Of a stretch of DNA of 34,621 bases, positions 1-31,869 are shown piece after piece. The DNA comes from a virus: positions 1 to 34,621 of IMG/VR virus record IMGVR_UViG_3300013113_000334; one strand, given 5' to 3'. Below the pieces are notes generated by a model, which was given only the letters and a program-made list of their open reading frames with translations, was not told the DNA's origin and did no database searches. Made by a program: the position numbers and the translations under genes. Every line of letters begins with the position of its first letter. Positions within the stretch are counted from its first letter, which is position 1.

Positions 1-72
1 CAGGCAGCCAGAGCCACAGGCAGCCAGAGCCACGGCCAGAGCCACGGCCAGAGCCACGGCCAGAGCCACGGC
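1..72. repeat. Short tandem repeat array (16-bp then 12-bp units)
   Basis: Two copies of CAGGCAGCCAGAGCCA are followed by about three copies of CGGCCAGAGCCA. The 12-bp unit looks like a shortened form of the 16-bp unit. The array runs off the left edge, so its full length is unknown. No coding sense is apparent. Confidence 0.85.
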
Positions 73-140
73 CCACAACCCCCCCTAGTGGGGGACACAA
101 CCCTTGCCTCCAATTACTACCCTAGGGGGGGTGCGATCAG

Positions 141-240
141 GACCGGGACCGGGGCCATGACCGGGGCCATGACCGGGGCCATGACCGGGGCCATGACCGG
201 GACCATGACCGGGACCATGACCGGGACCGGGACCGGGGCC
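141..240. repeat. 6/12-bp tandem repeat array
   Basis: The block is built from hexamers GACCGG, GGCCAT and GACCAT, mostly alternating to give a 12-bp unit such as GACCGGGGCCAT. The period is a multiple of three, so no stop codon arises and long ORFs appear in several frames on both strands. These encode only low-complexity Thr-Gly-Met or Gly-His-Pro strings and are not credible genes. Confidence 0.85.
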
Positions 241-428
241 ACCCCTCCCCTCCAGTGGGGGTGGCTGTATACCCTCTCCCCTCCAGCAGGGGGTCTGTAC
301 ACCCCCTCCCCTCCAGTGGGGGGACTGTACACCCGCTCCCCTCCAGTGGGGGGGCTGTACACCCGCTCCCCTCCAGTGGGGGGGCTGTACACCCCACACC
401 CCCCACCGGGGCTCCCCTCCAGTGGGGG
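237..428. repeat. 30-bp tandem repeat, each unit holding a CCCC-GGGG palindrome
   Basis: CTGTAC (CTGTAT in the first) recurs at 265, 295, 325, 355 and 385, giving an exact 30-bp period. The units starting at 325 and 355 are identical; those at 265 and 295 differ slightly and that at 385 is degenerate. Each unit carries a CCCC-TCCAGT-GGGG inverted repeat able to form a small hairpin, and a related one (CCCCCC-TAGT-GGGGG) lies near 84-98. Units abut with no unique spacers, so this is not a CRISPR array. The function is unknown. It may be a packaging or replication site, since it lies beside an HNH gene of the kind found next to terminase genes, or a captured intergenic repeat family. Confidence 0.85.
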
Positions 429-433
429 GTTGG

Positions 434-7995: not shown

Positions 7996-8213
7996 TATTG
8001 CCTTACCTTGTTTAGGATTTCCTGTGAGTGAGCGTGCATCTCATTGCACCTGATTACCTCGGCCCAGAGTTTCTTGCGGTCTTCGTCGCACTCCTCGCGG
8101 GCTTGTTTTGTTTCGCTGTAGTGGGTCATGATCTGACGCCACAAAAAAGTAACGACACCGCCAAGGGCCGAAATGGCCCCCAGTAATATCGTTGTGTCAG
8201 TTGATAGTTCCAT
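7995..8213 (-). CDS. Small membrane protein, holin- or spanin-like
   Basis: The 72-aa protein has one strong membrane segment at about 8-27 (ILLGAISALGGVVTFLW) and then a highly charged, probably coiled-coil tail to residue 72. This layout (short outside N-terminus, one helix, cytoplasmic charged tail) resembles XhlA-type holin accessory proteins and small phage holins. The charged helix could also suit an inner-membrane spanin. It is translationally coupled on both sides by TAATG and lies one gene from a secreted thioredoxin-like protein and a cysteine peptidase. A lysis role is inferred from topology and neighbours. Confidence 0.55.
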   Translation of the reverse strand: MELSTDTTILLGAISALGGVVTFLWRQIMTHYSETKQAREECDEDRKKLWAEVIRCNEMHAHSQEILNKVRQ

Positions 8214-8590
8214 TACTCTATGGCCTCAAGAACGCTGTTTAGCTTGGTGTAAAAATACTTTTTCTTGCTGAATCCATACCAGACTTTGCACTTGCCGTTT
8301 GACCAAACACGGAATGCCGGGTAAGCCTTGCCGATGCCGGTTGTCTTAACTACCGTCCATCCCTTTGACTCAAGCTCTTTTATTAAGCCAGACTCTTTGA
8401 ATCGAATGCACGGCGAACAACCTCTTGTTGTCTGGTATTCGAGAATCATGTGCTTCTCTGCTGGCTTCACGTCGACAATTGGATCTGGCTTTACTTCAAT
8501 GGCCTCGTTCGATACTGGCTGACAGCAGAACCAAACTCCAGTGCCTACGAATAAGTTGCTTGCAACCAAGAACAATGCTGAAAATCTCAT
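8213..8590 (-). CDS. Secreted thioredoxin-like protein with CxxC
   Basis: The 125-aa protein begins with a signal peptide or anchor (MRFSALFLVASNLFVGTGVW, then Cys22-Cys23). After a Lys/Pro-rich linker comes a compact thioredoxin-fold domain. The active site is RGCSPCIRF (C58, C61), and the cis-proline loop is AYPAFRV (P91). The fold would act outside the cytoplasmic membrane on disulfides. Thioredoxin-family phage proteins are usually cytoplasmic, so the export signal is unusual. Neighbours are the papain-like peptidase (start ATG overlaps its stop as ATGA) and a holin-like gene. Possible jobs are reduction or isomerisation of disulfides in host envelope proteins or of the Cys-rich tail protein encoded at 21322-23823; neither is demonstrated. 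Confidence 0.8.
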   Translation of the reverse strand: MRFSALFLVASNLFVGTGVWFCCQPVSNEAIEVKPDPIVDVKPAEKHMILEYQTTRGCSPCIRFKESGLIKELESKGWTVVKTTGIGKAYPAFRVWSNGKCKVWYGFSKKKYFYTKLNSVLEAIE

Positions 8591-9372
8591 TTAACTCTCC
8601 GGGGTTTAATTGACTTAATAACCAACGCTTCTGTCGGGTTCGCCCTATCGCCAAGGAGGACGCCATATCCACCTTCGCCCCAGGTGTAGTCCCAACTATT
8701 CACGATAACGATGCCCCACTGGCCACCGTATCGAATTCCTTGCAGCCCAAGGACCAAGTGGCCCCACCATGAAAGACCTAGTGTTACAGGTGAGCTGTTT
8801 AACGGATCGAGCAGTGCTGACATCGCACCGTCAAAATCGTATGAATCCAATCTCTCGTACTCCACAACGTCGTGAAGCTTGCTTGACTCAATGACCTCTG
8901 GATTATCTGGCAACTCTCGGTTAAACGAGCAGTTTGGCCATGCGTCCTGTGTTGGGATGCCGTACCTGTTGCAATACCTGACGGCCTCAACTCCCCAGCC
9001 ACCCTCGTTTGCGAAATCCTTTCCCTGGCAGGCCGGGCCGGCTGGTGACAACAGCGGAGCAACCCCGTCCATCTTGGCGTATCTGTTCATTACTCCCGCT
9101 ACCAAGCCGAAGCACCAGCAGTAGTTGGTTTTCCGCTGATTTAGCACAGGCACGTCAAAGTCTTTATGGACATGGTACGGGCTCGTTCTGTCTCGCTCTT
9201 GTAGGGCCATTAGTTCTGGCCAGTCTTTGCGGTCGTATCGCGCGCCCAGCACTCCGCTCTTGGAGTAGTATGGTTTGCCTCCAGAGAAGCCGCGAGACAG
9301 CCCCTTGGGTGTCTCAGGGACTCTTGTGATGATGTTGTTGGCAAGTCGTCCTAAATTTGATTCAAATGACAT
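8587..9372 (-). CDS. Papain-like (C1-type) cysteine peptidase
   Basis: In this 261-aa protein the papain catalytic elements are in order and correctly spaced: oxyanion Gln79 in VLNQ, nucleophile Cys85 in CWCF six residues later (papain has Q-x5-C-W-A-F), His205 in WWGHLVLG, and Asn225 in NSWDYTWGEGGYG, which matches the family signature around the catalytic Asn. The first about 70 residues resemble a short leader rather than a full inhibitory propeptide. There is no obvious signal peptide. It is coupled by TAATG to the gene upstream and ATGA to the thioredoxin-like gene downstream. Peptidase activity is well supported; the biological target is not. Candidates are virion maturation, host protein degradation, or attack on a proteinaceous envelope during lysis. 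Confidence 0.85.
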   Translation of the reverse strand: MSFESNLGRLANNIITRVPETPKGLSRGFSGGKPYYSKSGVLGARYDRKDWPELMALQERDRTSPYHVHKDFDVPVLNQRKTNYCWCFGLVAGVMNRYAKMDGVAPLLSPAGPACQGKDFANEGGWGVEAVRYCNRYGIPTQDAWPNCSFNRELPDNPEVIESSKLHDVVEYERLDSYDFDGAMSALLDPLNSSPVTLGLSWWGHLVLGLQGIRYGGQWGIVIVNSWDYTWGEGGYGVLLGDRANPTEALVIKSIKPRRVK

Positions 9373-9809
9373 TATCGCTTGTTCCTATCTAACATTGAGA
9401 CTGCATCCTCAATACTCTCTGGAATGTTCCAAGAGCTGAGGTATCCTGCGCGGTTGAGCATGCAAAAAGAGGGTACGCCACTGCTTAGTGCCGTCTCTCG
9501 CATTTTAACAATCTGCTCGCGGAGCGCCCGGATGTCGTCAGATAGAAGGATAGACGTCATTCCATAGCCGTTTTCTTCGCACCATAATCGGATTTTTGTG
9601 CTGTTGATAACAGAACCCTGACCGTAGCTGGTCCTGTTGCTGTCGAGTTCATGCAGTACAACTACCCACGGTTTCCAGTGTGGGTACCTCTTTGGGAGAA
9701 GCCTTGCGATCTCTTTGCGATTAACATAGCCAATTGCGCCGAGGGAAGCCCCGATCATGGCCGCGCTCGCTAGTTTCTGCAGGCTTTCCCGTCTGTTGAG
9801 AGTGTTCAC
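9372..9809 (-). CDS. Exported protein with Tat-like leader, possibly thioredoxin fold
   Basis: The 145-aa protein starts with GTG at 9809 (overlapping the previous TGA as GTGA). The N-terminus, NRRESLQKL followed by a hydrophobic Ala/Gly stretch to about 30, resembles a twin-arginine leader, although the usual Phe/Leu after RRx is Ser-Leu. The mature part has a beta-alpha pattern (WVVVLHELDS, then YGMTSILLSDD, then GVPSFCMLNRAG) compatible with a degenerate thioredoxin fold; SGVPSFCML sits where the cis-Pro strand would be. No CxxC is present. It lies between a membrane protein and the papain-like peptidase. The function is unknown. Confidence 0.6.
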   Translation of the reverse strand: MNTLNRRESLQKLASAAMIGASLGAIGYVNRKEIARLLPKRYPHWKPWVVVLHELDSNRTSYGQGSVINSTKIRLWCEENGYGMTSILLSDDIRALREQIVKMRETALSSGVPSFCMLNRAGYLSSWNIPESIEDAVSMLDRNKR

Positions 9810-10147
9810 GCATCACCCTCTTTCTCGTTCTCGAATTCGATAAGGTCAATGCCATACTCCTCAAGTTTCGCGTCAAGCAGGCGGAGAAGCTTCATCAGGA
9901 CGGGGCTCAACGATCTCCAGATGAATCCATAGACAGCGAGTGCCACACCACCAACGACGATGACAGCATCACAAACAACAGGTACAATACCGAGAATAAT
10001 ATTTGTGACTGAACCATAAGGGGACGCTCCAAAGTCAAAGAGAGAACCAATGCGAAAGAATACACCGGCCTTGTGTAGCTGCCAGATCAGGTAGATCGTG
10101 AAACAGCCTACCACGAATTTCACGGTGTCGCTAAACTTGTTGTTCAT
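9806..10147 (-). CDS. Membrane protein, candidate holin
   Basis: The 113-aa protein is read from the ATG at 10147, chosen because it follows the previous stop by one base and has GAGG upstream; a longer in-frame version would overlap the previous gene. It has two or three hydrophobic helices: one at about 10-30 (VKFVVGCFTIYLIWQL) and a long one at about 48-78 (IILGIVPVVCDAVIVVGGVALAVYGF) that may be two helices with a turn. A charged, acidic C-terminal tail follows. Size, helix number and charged tail suit a class II holin. It lies in the coupled block with the peptidase and thioredoxin-like genes. Confidence 0.6.
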   Translation of the reverse strand: MNNKFSDTVKFVVGCFTIYLIWQLHKAGVFFRIGSLFDFGASPYGSVTNIILGIVPVVCDAVIVVGGVALAVYGFIWRSLSPVLMKLLRLLDAKLEEYGIDLIEFENEKEGDA

Positions 10148-10148
10148 A

Positions 10149-10460
10149 TTACTTAACCTCGGTGTATTTGGATGGGACGGCAGAACCAAAAAGATTGTCT
10201 TTAACCCACTCTTCGACCCAGCGCATAGCCAGCTTGAGAAGAATACTCACGAGGATCGAAGTCAGGATTCCAGAGCCGTATTTTTGCTCGAGATCATCCT
10301 TTACTCCACGGCGTGTCGCTTCAACCCGATCACGGGCCGCTGAATGCAGGAGTCTGCTTGCTGGCTCGCGAGCAGATGCAACCTCCAGGTCCGCCGTATT
10401 CCACCTCCAGTGCATTCTGGCTGATTTGCGGGCAAATTCCCTGTGCTTCTGGCGAATCAT
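10149..10460 (-). CDS. Small protein with amphipathic/membrane helix
   Basis: This 103-aa protein is not recognised. The N-terminal 55 residues are Arg-rich and helical. Residues about 62-92 (GSGILTSILVSILLKLAMRW, then an acidic amphipathic stretch) could insert in or lie along a membrane. It is the first gene after the long structured gap at 10461-10765, and its ATG at 10460 is preceded by AAGGA 7 bases upstream. The following candidate holin starts one base after its stop. Position suggests a lysis accessory or membrane-targeting role, but this is inference. Confidence 0.6.
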   Translation of the reverse strand: MIRQKHREFARKSARMHWRWNTADLEVASAREPASRLLHSAARDRVEATRRGVKDDLEQKYGSGILTSILVSILLKLAMRWVEEWVKDNLFGSAVPSKYTEVK

Positions 10461-10480
10461 CGTTGGTTCCTTATGTTAAA

Positions 10481-10525
10481 CCTTAGTACCCCGACTGCCA
10501 GCGCAACTGACAATCGGGGCTAAGG
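10481..10525 (-). other. Leader hairpin before the membrane-protein operon
   Basis: Arms CCTTAG+CCCCGA (10481-10494, with a TA bulge) and TCGGGG+CTAAGG (10514-10525) pair over 12 bp. Inner TG/CA and CAG/CTG pairs extend the stem. Its minus-strand end lies 20 bases before the ATG at 10460, so it would form in the 5' leader and may protect the message or control translation. No run of T follows, so it is a weak terminator candidate. Confidence 0.6.
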
Positions 10526-10530
10526 CCGGA

Positions 10531-10658
10531 GAAAAAATTGTAGCGTCCACGGCGTAAACGCAGATCAGTGATTGACCTCAAGAGGCTGTTTTGCCGTGCC
10601 GCCGTCATTTCGGCGGAACCATTTTAAGGCGACGCTACCCGGAGTTGCGACCTCCGGG
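10531..10658 (-). ncRNA. Candidate structured RNA: three-way junction ending in a U-tract
   Basis: On the minus strand a closing stem of 8 bp (10631-10638 with 10540-10547) encloses two adjacent stems. The first is CCGCCG/CGGCGG (10611-10616 with 10599-10604, 6-nt loop). The second is CACGGC/GCCGTG (10593-10598 with 10548-10553). All three meet with almost no unpaired bases on one side. The closing stem is followed by AATTTTTTC, like an intrinsic terminator. A further hairpin CCCGGAG/CTCCGGG (10638-10658) precedes it. A TATAAT at 10730-10735 could start a transcript of about 190-200 nt. Short ORFs also run through it (26 codons at 10635-10715; 41 codons at 10483-10608 whose ATG lies in the hairpin loop), so a coding explanation is not excluded. 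No known RNA family was recognised. Confidence 0.45.
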
Positions 10659-10715
10659 CTTTGATTTGAATAGAATTTCCAGCAAAATAGGGTCAAAATT
10701 GTCGCAATATTTCAT
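10635..10715 (-). CDS. Possible 26-aa leader peptide
   Basis: The ATG at 10715 has AAGGA seven bases upstream, a good ribosome binding site, just after the TATAAT at 10730. The peptide MKYCDNFDPILLEILFKSK plus seven residues ends inside the hairpin at 10638-10658. A translated leader next to such a hairpin could influence folding of the downstream RNA. It may also be a chance ORF; its length alone proves nothing. Confidence 0.3.
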   Translation of the reverse strand: MKYCDNFDPILLEILFKSKPGGRNSG

Positions 10716-10729
10716 TTTGGGTTCCTTTC

Positions 10730-10761
10730 ATTATAGCCTAAAACACTCGGGAAACGGTCAA
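10730..10761 (-). promoter_or_regulatory. Promoter-like site before the structured leader
   Basis: TATAAT (complement of 10730-10735) is preceded by GTTTTAGGC, the same nine bases seen before the TATAAT at 31839. A TTGACC lies 20 bp upstream, which is too far for a normal sigma-70 -35 box, so the site would depend on the -10 region or a phage factor. It lies downstream of the helicase stop and would serve the 10460-to-1021 block. Confidence 0.5.
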
Positions 10762-10765
10762 CATC

Positions 10766-12421
10766 TTAAAACGGTGCCTCCAGATCAGGAAGTTCAATAA
10801 ATGGCGGTCTTTTCACGGTTCGAGGAAGCTTTAGTCGCCAGTATTTGCCGTCTTGCTTTACCAGAATTTTGTCAGGAACCGCCAAGGCTCCGGCATCTGC
10901 TAACGTGAGGGCCTCGTACACGGTGTCTGGGCAGTGGTTCCTGCTGAGTTTATTCCATTTCGCCTCAGCCATATCGCGCGCTACGCCCTCATGCTCAATG
11001 CAGAGCCACTCTGAATACTCAGGGGCAAATAGCTGACCTTCCTTGCCCTCCGCCTTGTAGATGACCCGCAAGCTATCTGGCTTCCCCTCTTTGCTGTGCC
11101 GGAAGTATTTTGCTTCCGCAACTTTCACCTCTGTCCATGGATTTTTAGCAGTAGCATTCATCACGTCGTTGACGCTATCAGCCGATGAATCGACATTGAT
11201 CTGAGGGGCTGGGAATTGGTATCCGCACCCGCACTCCCGGGAGGCCGCGTAAGCTTGAGATCCGCAGCATGGGCAGACCTTCATGACTGCCTCACCCTTC
11301 CCGGCCTCTGGCTTAGGCTTGTTGCCGTAATCAGGGTCATCAATCGCGCCGTGTCGCTTGACATTGCCGCCGAAGTCCAAGAGGATGCAATCAGTCTTGC
11401 CTGGGGATGTCCGTAAACCCCTGCCGCAAATCTGGCTGAACAAGCCAGCGGACAGCGTGGCCCGCATGACTGAAATGAGGTCAACGTTGGGGGCGTCGAA
11501 GCCCGTAGTTAGGACGTTGCAGTTCACAAGCCAACGAAGTCTGCCGGATCGGAAGTCAGCGATAAGCTGTGCGCGCTCCAGCGGGAGTGTGTCGCCGGTT
11601 ACGACGCCCACTTTCTCACCGGTCATCTCCCACTCGATGTACCTTGCTACTGCTGCTGCGTGATCCACTCCAGAGCAGAACACGAGGCATGATTTTCTGC
11701 CCTCAGATGAAGCGATAGCAACAGTCTCTCGGACAGACTCGCGGACATTACCCATGAACAGGTCGGACAAATCAGAGCCCTTGAAGTCCCATCCTGAGCG
11801 CCTGAGGCCGCTCGTATCGACCCCCAGGACATTCTTCGACAAGAGTGGCGCAAGATGCCCTTCGTCCAGTAGGCGGCCAACAGGGAGCCTGTACGAAACG
11901 CCCTCAAACGGCAGCCCAGTCCCGATGATCGACCCGTTGTCGAGTCGATACGGTGTTGCGGTCATGCCGATCATGCGAGCCTTGGGGTTAAGCGCCTTGA
12001 GCTGACGAAGAAACTTGTTGTACTGTCCGCCGTCCCCACGGGGGATCAAGTGGCATTCGTCCACGATCACCATAGATCGTTCGCCCAGCTCGCATTCTTT
12101 ATCGACCACCGAGCCGATGGTGGCATAGACGAAGTCTGCTTCGGACTGCTTGGACCGAAGCGATGCACTATAGATGCCAACAGACAGCTCTGGGGCCAGT
12201 GCTTTCAGTTTGGCCACGTTCTGCTCCGTCAGTTCGCGGGAGGGTTGCAGAATAATGGCCCTCTTACCCCAGCCAGCAACCTTCTGGCAGAGCATGGCCT
12301 GAACCAGAGACTTACCAGAGCCGGTGGGCAGCTCGATCAGCGGGCTACCCTTGGCCTTTCGCAAGTAATTCATTGTGGAATCGACCGCTTCGGTCTGGTA
12401 GTCTCTGGGTGTAAATTGCAT
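10766..12421 (-). CDS. SF2 DEAD/DEAH-box helicase with zinc ribbon
   Basis: The 551-aa cytoplasmic DNA or RNA translocase has these motifs in order: Q-like RDYQ at 6-9, Walker A PTGSGKS 32-38, motif II DECH 121-124, motif III TATP 154-157, motif V TTGFDAP about 305-311, and motif VI QICGRGLR 330-337. A four-Cys zinc ribbon follows (CPCCG at 383-387, CGCG at 397-400), then about 130 uncharacterised residues. The architecture resembles ResIII/UvsW-like phage helicases used in recombination-dependent replication or branch migration. No nuclease domain is attached. The start overlaps the previous stop as TAATG. It shares an operon with a Sak4-like ATPase and a DUF669 protein. Confidence 0.92.
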   Translation of the reverse strand: MQFTPRDYQTEAVDSTMNYLRKAKGSPLIELPTGSGKSLVQAMLCQKVAGWGKRAIILQPSRELTEQNVAKLKALAPELSVGIYSASLRSKQSEADFVYATIGSVVDKECELGERSMVIVDECHLIPRGDGGQYNKFLRQLKALNPKARMIGMTATPYRLDNGSIIGTGLPFEGVSYRLPVGRLLDEGHLAPLLSKNVLGVDTSGLRRSGWDFKGSDLSDLFMGNVRESVRETVAIASSEGRKSCLVFCSGVDHAAAVARYIEWEMTGEKVGVVTGDTLPLERAQLIADFRSGRLRWLVNCNVLTTGFDAPNVDLISVMRATLSAGLFSQICGRGLRTSPGKTDCILLDFGGNVKRHGAIDDPDYGNKPKPEAGKGEAVMKVCPCCGSQAYAASRECGCGYQFPAPQINVDSSADSVNDVMNATAKNPWTEVKVAEAKYFRHSKEGKPDSLRVIYKAEGKEGQLFAPEYSEWLCIEHEGVARDMAEAKWNKLSRNHCPDTVYEALTLADAGALAVPDKILVKQDGKYWRLKLPRTVKRPPFIELPDLEAPF

Positions 12422-12635: not shown

Positions 12636-12672
12636 AAAAGGAAGGGCCCCGGAGCTATTTACCCCGGGGCCC
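12636..12672 (-). terminator. Intrinsic terminator/attenuator before the helicase pair
   Basis: On the minus strand, GGGCCCCGG (12664-12672) pairs with CCGGGGCCC (12644-12652) around an 11-nt loop, followed by TTCCTTTT. It separates the DUF669 gene from the two downstream genes. No promoter is evident between it and 12624, so it probably reduces rather than blocks helicase expression. Confidence 0.75.
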
Positions 12673-14763: not shown

Positions 14764-15159
14764 TCAAAAATCTTGGTTGTCGCGGTACGCTTCTGCCCTT
14801 CTCATGATCTCGGAGACTGGGATCATGAAATCAACCCTACCGGAAGCTTCGTCCAAGTCATAGCTGTCGCCCTGGTCGTCTACGATCATTGGTAGTACAT
14901 TGAGAACCTCACCAGACCGATGAATAAATATCTCGCAGTGGCTAAACTTCCTTTCCACCATGGCGAGCCCGGACCAAACCGACTGCTGGCACTTGAGAAG
15001 CTTCTGAACAAGCTGACCTAGCCTCACCTTCTTGCCTCTTTCGGTCAGGCTTGAGTTTTCCACGAACTCAGCGATATCAGTAATCAGGCTGTTAATGTCC
15101 TTGATCTGATAGGGTCCGTTTTCTGTTTCGTCCTCAAACTTGGATTGATAGTCTTTCAT
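14764..15159 (-). CDS. Uncharacterised early protein
   Basis: This 131-aa protein is not recognised. The first 60 residues are acidic and helical. The middle contains a helix KVRLGQLVQKLLKCQQSVW, then a beta section with FSHCEIFIHRSGEVLNVLP, and a short helical end. It is the first gene of the minus-strand DNA-metabolism operon, reading away from a divergent control region. Leading position and small size suit an early regulatory or host-takeover protein, but no DNA-binding motif is evident. Confidence 0.6.
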   Translation of the reverse strand: MKDYQSKFEDETENGPYQIKDINSLITDIAEFVENSSLTERGKKVRLGQLVQKLLKCQQSVWSGLAMVERKFSHCEIFIHRSGEVLNVLPMIVDDQGDSYDLDEASGRVDFMIPVSEIMRRAEAYRDNQDF

Positions 15160-15227: not shown

Positions 15228-15256
15228 ATTATAGCCAATAACCCCCGGCGAACCAA
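15228..15256 (-). promoter_or_regulatory. Promoter of the minus-strand DNA-metabolism operon
   Basis: TATAAT (complement of 15228-15233) with TTGGTT 17 bp upstream (complement of 15251-15256). The bases before the -10 (GGGGGTTATTGGC) resemble those at 27623, 31839 and 10730. The transcript would start near 15221, about 62 bases before the ATG at 15159. Confidence 0.65.
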
Positions 15257-20684: not shown

Positions 20685-20693
20685 CAACCGGGG

Positions 20694-20864
20694 CTAATGG
20701 CTACCTTGTGAGCTGCCCCAGCATGCCCAAACGATTGCAATGTTTGATACGCTATAACAGGCCCACATGAGGCCCAGCGGGTGTTCCGCTTTCCGAAAGT
20801 AGGCAACCGCTGTTATCGCGTACAGAACAGCGACAATTATTGGGCAAATCTTCTCCAGACTCAT
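20694..20864 (-). CDS. Small two-helix membrane protein
   Basis: The 56-aa protein, read from the ATG at 20864 (MSLEKICPIIVAVLYAITAV), has two membrane helices: about 6-22, and about 29-48 after an AEHP turn. A longer version begins at the ATG at 20918, but that codon is formed by the last base pairs of the terminator stem and its first codons are the T-tract, so it is less likely. No clear ribosome binding site is seen at 20864. It lies after the late operon terminator, convergent with the early operon. Superinfection or lysis roles are possible; not shown. Confidence 0.5.
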   Translation of the reverse strand: MSLEKICPIIVAVLYAITAVAYFRKAEHPLGLMWACYSVSNIAIVWACWGSSQGSH

Positions 20865-20905: not shown

Positions 20906-20952
20906 TAAAAATTAGCATAAGCCCCGGGTGCGATCTGGCACCCGGGGCTTAT
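20906..20952 (-). terminator. Strong terminator with 15-bp perfect stem after the head-tail operon
   Basis: ATAAGCCCCGGGTGC (20917-20931) and its exact complement (20938-20952) flank the 6-nt loop GATCTG. On the minus strand the stem is followed by GCTAATTTTT; on the plus strand only by a weaker T-rich stretch. It lies 74 bases after the last gene of the head-tail operon and before a convergent region, so it may work in both directions. A minor 6-bp hairpin (AGGCGC/GCGCCT) lies near 20963-20979. Confidence 0.9.
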
Positions 20953-30386: not shown

Positions 30387-30513
30387 TTGGACTAGCCTTA
30401 ATTTCTTTCGCTACACTTAGGGATATGAGTGTATTGGCGACACCGATCTTGTCGGTGTCCCAGATTGCCCCGGCTGGAAATCCCAACCGGGGCTTTAGGA
30501 ATTTGATCTTCAT
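30310..30513 (-). CDS. Small capsid-adjacent protein
   Basis: The 67-aa protein begins KIKFLKPRLGFPAGAIWD, a beta fold start seen in short phage proteins encoded just after the capsid gene (K-V-x-F-L-x-P then a G and acidic turn). GVANTLISLSVAKEIK then forms a helix, and the tail is very basic (KKNNRKPRATGNRKRPKR). The true ATG is at 30513 (a TTG at 30516 precedes it). There is no clear ribosome binding site. Two hairpins (30439-30459, 30467-30493) lie inside the coding start. Possible roles: capsid decoration or DNA condensation by its tail. It overlaps the connector start by 77 bases. Confidence 0.6.
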   Translation of the reverse strand: MKIKFLKPRLGFPAGAIWDTDKIGVANTLISLSVAKEIKASPNEVVTKKNNRKPRATGNRKRPKRSS

Positions 30514-31838: not shown

Positions 31839-31869
31839 ATTATAGCCTAAAACCGCCGGCCAGCCTCAA
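31839..31869 (-). promoter_or_regulatory. Promoter-like TATAAT before the capsid gene
   Basis: TATAAT (complement of 31839-31844) is preceded by GTTTTAGGC; a TTGAGG is 19 bp upstream. The same nine bases before the -10 occur at 10730. The transcript would start near 31832, about 47 bases before the capsid ATG at 31785, and the site lies in the gap after the protease gene, so it may boost capsid expression. Confidence 0.55.

Follow-up and report, generated by a model that had tools for sequence, protein, structure and literature searches.

A structured leader RNA at the head of a membrane protein and papain-like protease operon in an uncultured tailed phage

The gap between a helicase gene and a gene for a 103-aa protein (10461-10765), both on the minus strand of a tailed phage genome, holds a leader whose RNA structure is real and non-random. 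We analysed the window, a 34,621-nucleotide stretch of a virus record that carries terminase, portal, Clp protease, HK97-type capsid and tape-measure genes. The initial annotation had proposed a structured leader or small RNA upstream of a membrane/secretion operon. The leader is upheld by a repeated promoter box, by a promoter position after the helicase that is conserved, and by strong stem-loops in most relatives. The operon is also real, the 103-aa gene being followed 3' by genes for a membrane protein and then a papain-like protease, but its secretory role found no support. From the promoter box, the synteny and the non-random folding observed at the gap, we infer, tentatively and at somewhat short of an even chance, a cis-acting 5' leader that combines partial termination with stabilisation or processing of the readthrough mRNA. 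Transcription would start near 10723 from the operon's own sigma70-type promoter and the nascent RNA would fold into hairpin A and a closed junction, whose P1 stem, followed by U6, would act as a partial intrinsic terminator (attenuator) at which some transcripts stop at ~190 nt. The remaining transcripts would read through U6, and hairpin B would stabilise this mRNA or set a processing point for the message of the 103-aa protein, the membrane protein and the papain-like protease.

Promoter and folding of the leader

Every element named in the initial annotation was recovered on the minus strand where it had been placed (Table 1). The TATAAT proposed there lies within the box GTTTTAGGCTATAAT, which occurs exactly at 10744-10730 and at 31853-31839, before the capsid gene; a copy at 15242-15228 with 2 mismatches precedes the gene at 15159. 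All three copies stand at the heads of gene groups; 0.45 matches are expected in the window, and three were reached in 0/100 shuffles. The box was also the only noteworthy repeat that a repeat search returned inside the gap. The -35 element of the gap promoter is poor (TTGACC, 20-nt spacing), and a consensus promoter scan reported no canonical promoter at the gap. Despite the poor -35, the recurrence of this sequence is good evidence that the box marks a phage promoter. At the other two copies (15228-15242 and 31839-31853), a stem-loop immediately follows in the predicted RNA, at +1, with z scores of -1.0 and -1.8 that are not significant by shuffling.

Table 1. Features of the gap and of the genes on either side.
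Feature	Position	Strand	Remarks
Helicase gene, upstream, syntenic anchor	10766..12421	-	Pfam ResIII, DEAD, Helicase_C; relatives found
Promoter box GTTTTAGGCTATAAT (-10 region)	10730..10744	-	TATAAT at 10735-10730; predicted transcription start ~10723
26-codon ORF, SD-like AAAGGA	10635..10715	-	codon score -0.04; coding unsupported
Hairpin A, 7 bp, CCCGGAG/CTCCGGG	10658-10652 with 10644-10638	-	inner pairs probability 0.99-1.0
Closed junction, P1, P2 and P3 plus weak 3-bp arm	10540..10638	-	z -4.13, reached by 0/300 shuffles (folded as 10640-10538)
P1, 8 bp, GTAGCGTC/GACGCTAC	10638-10631 with 10547-10540	-	
P2, 6 bp, CCGCCG/CGGCGG	10616-10611 with 10604-10599	-	
41-codon ORF across junction	10483..10608	-	codon score -0.16; coding unsupported
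P3, 6 bp, CACGGC/GCCGTG	10598-10593 with 10553-10548	-	
T6 (U6) run, terminator-like	10532..10537	-	2 bases 3' of P1; within AATTTTTTC, after junction
Hairpin B, 20 pairs plus two outer GU pairs (20-22 bp)	10479..10527	-	2-nt bulge, 3-nt loop
First operon gene, 103-aa protein	10149..10460	-	homologues in relatives

The 7-bp hairpin, the U-tract and the long hairpin near the ATG at 10460 were all confirmed. A three-way junction with stems of 8, 6 and 6 bp, as described earlier, was borne out for these stems, to which the minimum free energy fold adds a fourth arm of 3 bp (GCC/GGT). In the RNA ending at T6, pair probabilities were 0.92-0.97 for P1 pairs 3-8, at least 0.97 for P2 and at least 0.96 for P3. 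The two outermost P1 pairs compete with hairpin A, and the outermost is only ~35% formed because base 10638 is common to both stems. P1 is followed by AAUUUUUU; an alternative local hairpin (10561-10543) is likewise flagged as terminator-like, with P1 strongly preferred over it (0.97 vs 0.03). Hairpin B, which few simple hairpins of the window surpass in stability, ends ~20 nt before the ATG. The first 60 nt from the predicted start are nearly unstructured (-3.3 kcal/mol), strong structures starting ~65 nt downstream of the 5' end. Other very stable intergenic hairpins lie at 20917-20952, 939-980 and 12644-12672. A second exact copy of the hairpin B arm TTAGCCCCGRTTG lies at 20685-20697, and copies with 2 mismatches occur in the hairpin at 20917-20952 and in one at 30467-30493; these stable hairpins are possibly the terminator-type hairpins of the phage.

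Folding was compared with dinucleotide shuffles. The whole leader (10723-10461; z -5.00) was matched by 0/120 shuffles and hairpin B (z -6.15) by 0/300, and the plus strand of the gap was less structured (z -2.66). A 200-nt scan of both strands placed 10422-10621 (minus) among the ten most over-structured of 690 segments. Among 4604 stretches of 97 nt ordered by raw energy, the junction comes only 111th, and the signal therefore lies in composition-corrected folding and in the arrangement of the elements, not in sheer stability. Seven other minus-strand U-runs likewise adjoin a stem of at least 6 bp.

The leader in related phages

Syntenic viral contigs were found via the helicase and the protease, and a promoter with a stem-loop between helicase and operon is present in these relatives also. 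The 103-aa protein shares 33% identity with a protein of contig L002 (E 4e-10), and further homologues were found. Downstream of the helicase stop codon, the L002 clade carries TTGACA-N17-TATGGT, and L082 and L119 carry the box TTTTGCTAAAAT; L122 and L114 have similar boxes followed by an inserted trypsin-like gene. Counted on the predicted RNA, the stem-loop of the relatives usually starts between +1 and +6. Leader z scores were about -4 in L082, L119 and L122, -2.5 to -2.9 in L091, L094 and L102, and near chance in L002, L092 and L114, while in L110 the cassette directly follows other genes with no gap and no leader. A clear U-run was seen in three relatives (L091, L095 and L102) and a weak one in two (L002 and L094), and in L082, L119 and L122 none comes after the hairpin; no relative has a terminator as clear as that of the window.

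The cassette of 103-aa protein, membrane protein and papain-like protease (8213-10460) recurs in phages with differing upstream genes (L110, L114, L122 and L088), and L114 and L122 contain the inserted trypsin-like gene. The protease, sought in bacterial and archaeal genomes for a lead to the host, gave no match there, and a tRNA/tmRNA search returned none. At the contig end (window 1-430), tandem arrays with a 12-bp unit, GACCGGGGCCAT, and a 30-bp unit, CCCCTCCCCTCCAGTGGGGGGGCTGTACAC, lie beside an HNH gene (515-820).

The leaders of the relatives share no sequence with the junction of the window. The sole hit of DNA similarity searches in phages and plasmids was a stretch of 25 nt in a single plasmid record, which we took as chance, and the exact 24-base junction core was absent from the viral contigs searched. 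A covariance model of the junction, built from a single sequence and of limited reach, recovered only itself from 47 sources and 11 whole records. Close relatives sought via the membrane protein, portal and protease came down to a distant portal and the 6.6-kb contig L103, which carries an identical portal fragment and was covered by the junction model search. The earlier statement that the leader belongs to no known RNA family agrees with Rfam, which gave no match in the window at the gathering threshold and nothing credible at relaxed thresholds (best match 17.8 bits against a cut-off of 43.8).

Covariation was measured in the 7 sequences of the L002 clade, the searches having found no homologue of the window's own junction. 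In the closed fold of this clade, 3 pairs were changed on both sides and 93% of cells were paired, and the covariation score exceeded 500/500 shuffles and all slid controls. These results indicate modest covariation of the leader in a clade whose sequences are few and related, the structure being derived from the same alignment. Unlike the closed fold, the simple terminator hairpin of the L002 clade showed no significant covariation. In this clade, the arm before the U-run can take either the 5' end or a nearer arm as its partner, the preference differing among sequences, and the window has the same layout in P1 and its local hairpin.

Attenuation and other readings of the RNA

The arrangement at the gap fits an attenuator: a promoter box upstream (10744-10730) and a gene downstream (at 10460) on the same strand, with a stable P1 stem followed after 2 nt by U6 (fold z -4.1). 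Attenuation is further favoured by a promoter position after the helicase that is kept in several lineages, by non-random folding, by the preference for P1 over the local hairpin, by covariation and alternative partners in the L002 clade, and by the missing leader in L110, where other genes directly precede the cassette. Against it stand the U-run, which is weak or absent in several relatives, the seven other stem-adjoining U-runs, the poor -35 and the failure of the searches to find any relative of the window's junction. Pfam and PHROGs searches of the early and flanking proteins found no Q-type antiterminator, and an unrelated antiterminator would be missed by them.

Because the U-run ranges from clear to absent among relatives, the main rival is a 5' UTR that is structured but has no regulated termination, in which the hairpins would only protect or process the mRNA, as a 5' stem-loop or an RNase III-type site, and U6 would be incidental. 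We regard this as a serious, if somewhat doubtful, possibility. The feature common to the relatives is the leader stem-loop and not the U-run, the window's two other promoters also precede a stem-loop at +1, albeit one not significant by shuffling, and hairpin B spans about two turns of helix. However, the leader differs from classical 5'-end stabilisers in having hardly any structure in the ~60 nt that follow its predicted start, and a U6 two bases beyond so strong a stem is unlikely to be entirely without effect. If termination at U6 is real, the leader would be a concrete switch for a conserved, uncharacterised cassette of uncultured phages, and its position could stay conserved while its sequence turns over; if there is no such termination, it would be an ordinary structured 5' UTR.

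An independent trans-acting small RNA of ~190 nt, running from the promoter to U6 and lying upstream of the operon by coincidence, would account for the promoter, the compact fold and the terminator-like end, but it is unlikely: no homologue appeared in any search made, no target is known, and in relatives the region invariably lies in front of this same operon, which favours a role in cis. Also improbable is a wider proposal, that of a phage lineage whose fast-evolving bistable leaders would switch the membrane-protein/cysteine-protease operon through an unknown antiterminator, with the window as the most elaborate form. The arm before the U-run would then choose between a distal partner, closing the multi-branched fold, and a proximal one.

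The frames of 26 and 41 codons reported earlier do exist, but codon usage and homology give no coding support. Genes score 0.32 ± 0.16, and both short ORFs fall below them and above out-of-frame averages. It is very unlikely that one or both are small genes, possibly encoding a leader peptide, even though an SD-like AAAGGA precedes the 26-codon ORF and the sister clade carries a small coding-like ORF after its leader. The 5' arm of P1 contains the stop codon of the 26-codon ORF (10637-10635), and translation of this ORF could therefore block the terminator. Apart from the codon scores, however, a homology search with the 26-residue peptide gave no credible relative, 6.5% of shuffles held an SD-preceded ORF of 25 codons or more and 21% held an ORF as long as 41 codons, and most of the SD falls before the predicted start at ~10723. 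In the sister clade, the small ORF (MKNVDLL..., L002 6798-7027, with homologous places in L091, L094 and L102) lies between the leader and the 103-aa homologue, overlaps the latter in another frame and shows coding-like substitutions.

Least probable of all is chance folding without function, for although several other parts of the genome fold as well or better and the junction's rank by raw energy is unremarkable, junction and hairpin B were matched by no shuffle, relatives are structured at the same place, and many of the higher-ranked stretches are GC-rich repeats or intergenic hairpins.

Comparison with known leaders

In the late leader of phage lambda, the promoter pR' is followed by the 194-nt 6S RNA and then by tR'. 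The window is similar in its promoter, its RNA of ~190 nt with a terminator-like end, and the operon that follows, which encodes small membrane proteins as well as an enzyme. It differs in that no Q homologue was found and there is no sequence likeness to lambda, that a lysis role of the operon is unsupported, and that termination is predicted. In lambda, tR' is relieved by Q (for the mechanism, see PMC7171158 and PMC6606751), and because no Q protein was found, the parallel with pR'-6S-tR' is one of likeness and not of membership.

Like attenuator leaders, the window and its L002 sister clade have an arm before the U-run with two possible partners; unlike them, they come with no identified ligand, protein or leader peptide, and in the window one partner dominates. 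Comparison can also be made with 5' stem-loop mRNA stabilisers of the ompA/papA type (PMC3997798), given the strong leader stem-loops in the relatives' operon and at two other promoters of the window. The gap's own RNA departs from this type since, given the predicted start, its 5' end is open, with no stem-loop near it. RNase III processing hairpins are found in phage mRNAs of the T7 type. Hairpin B resembles these in its ~20-22 bp, its small bulge and its location upstream of a gene start, and would be a putative cleavage site. Overall, the leader looks like a fast-evolving member of a familiar type of control region rather than a new class of RNA.
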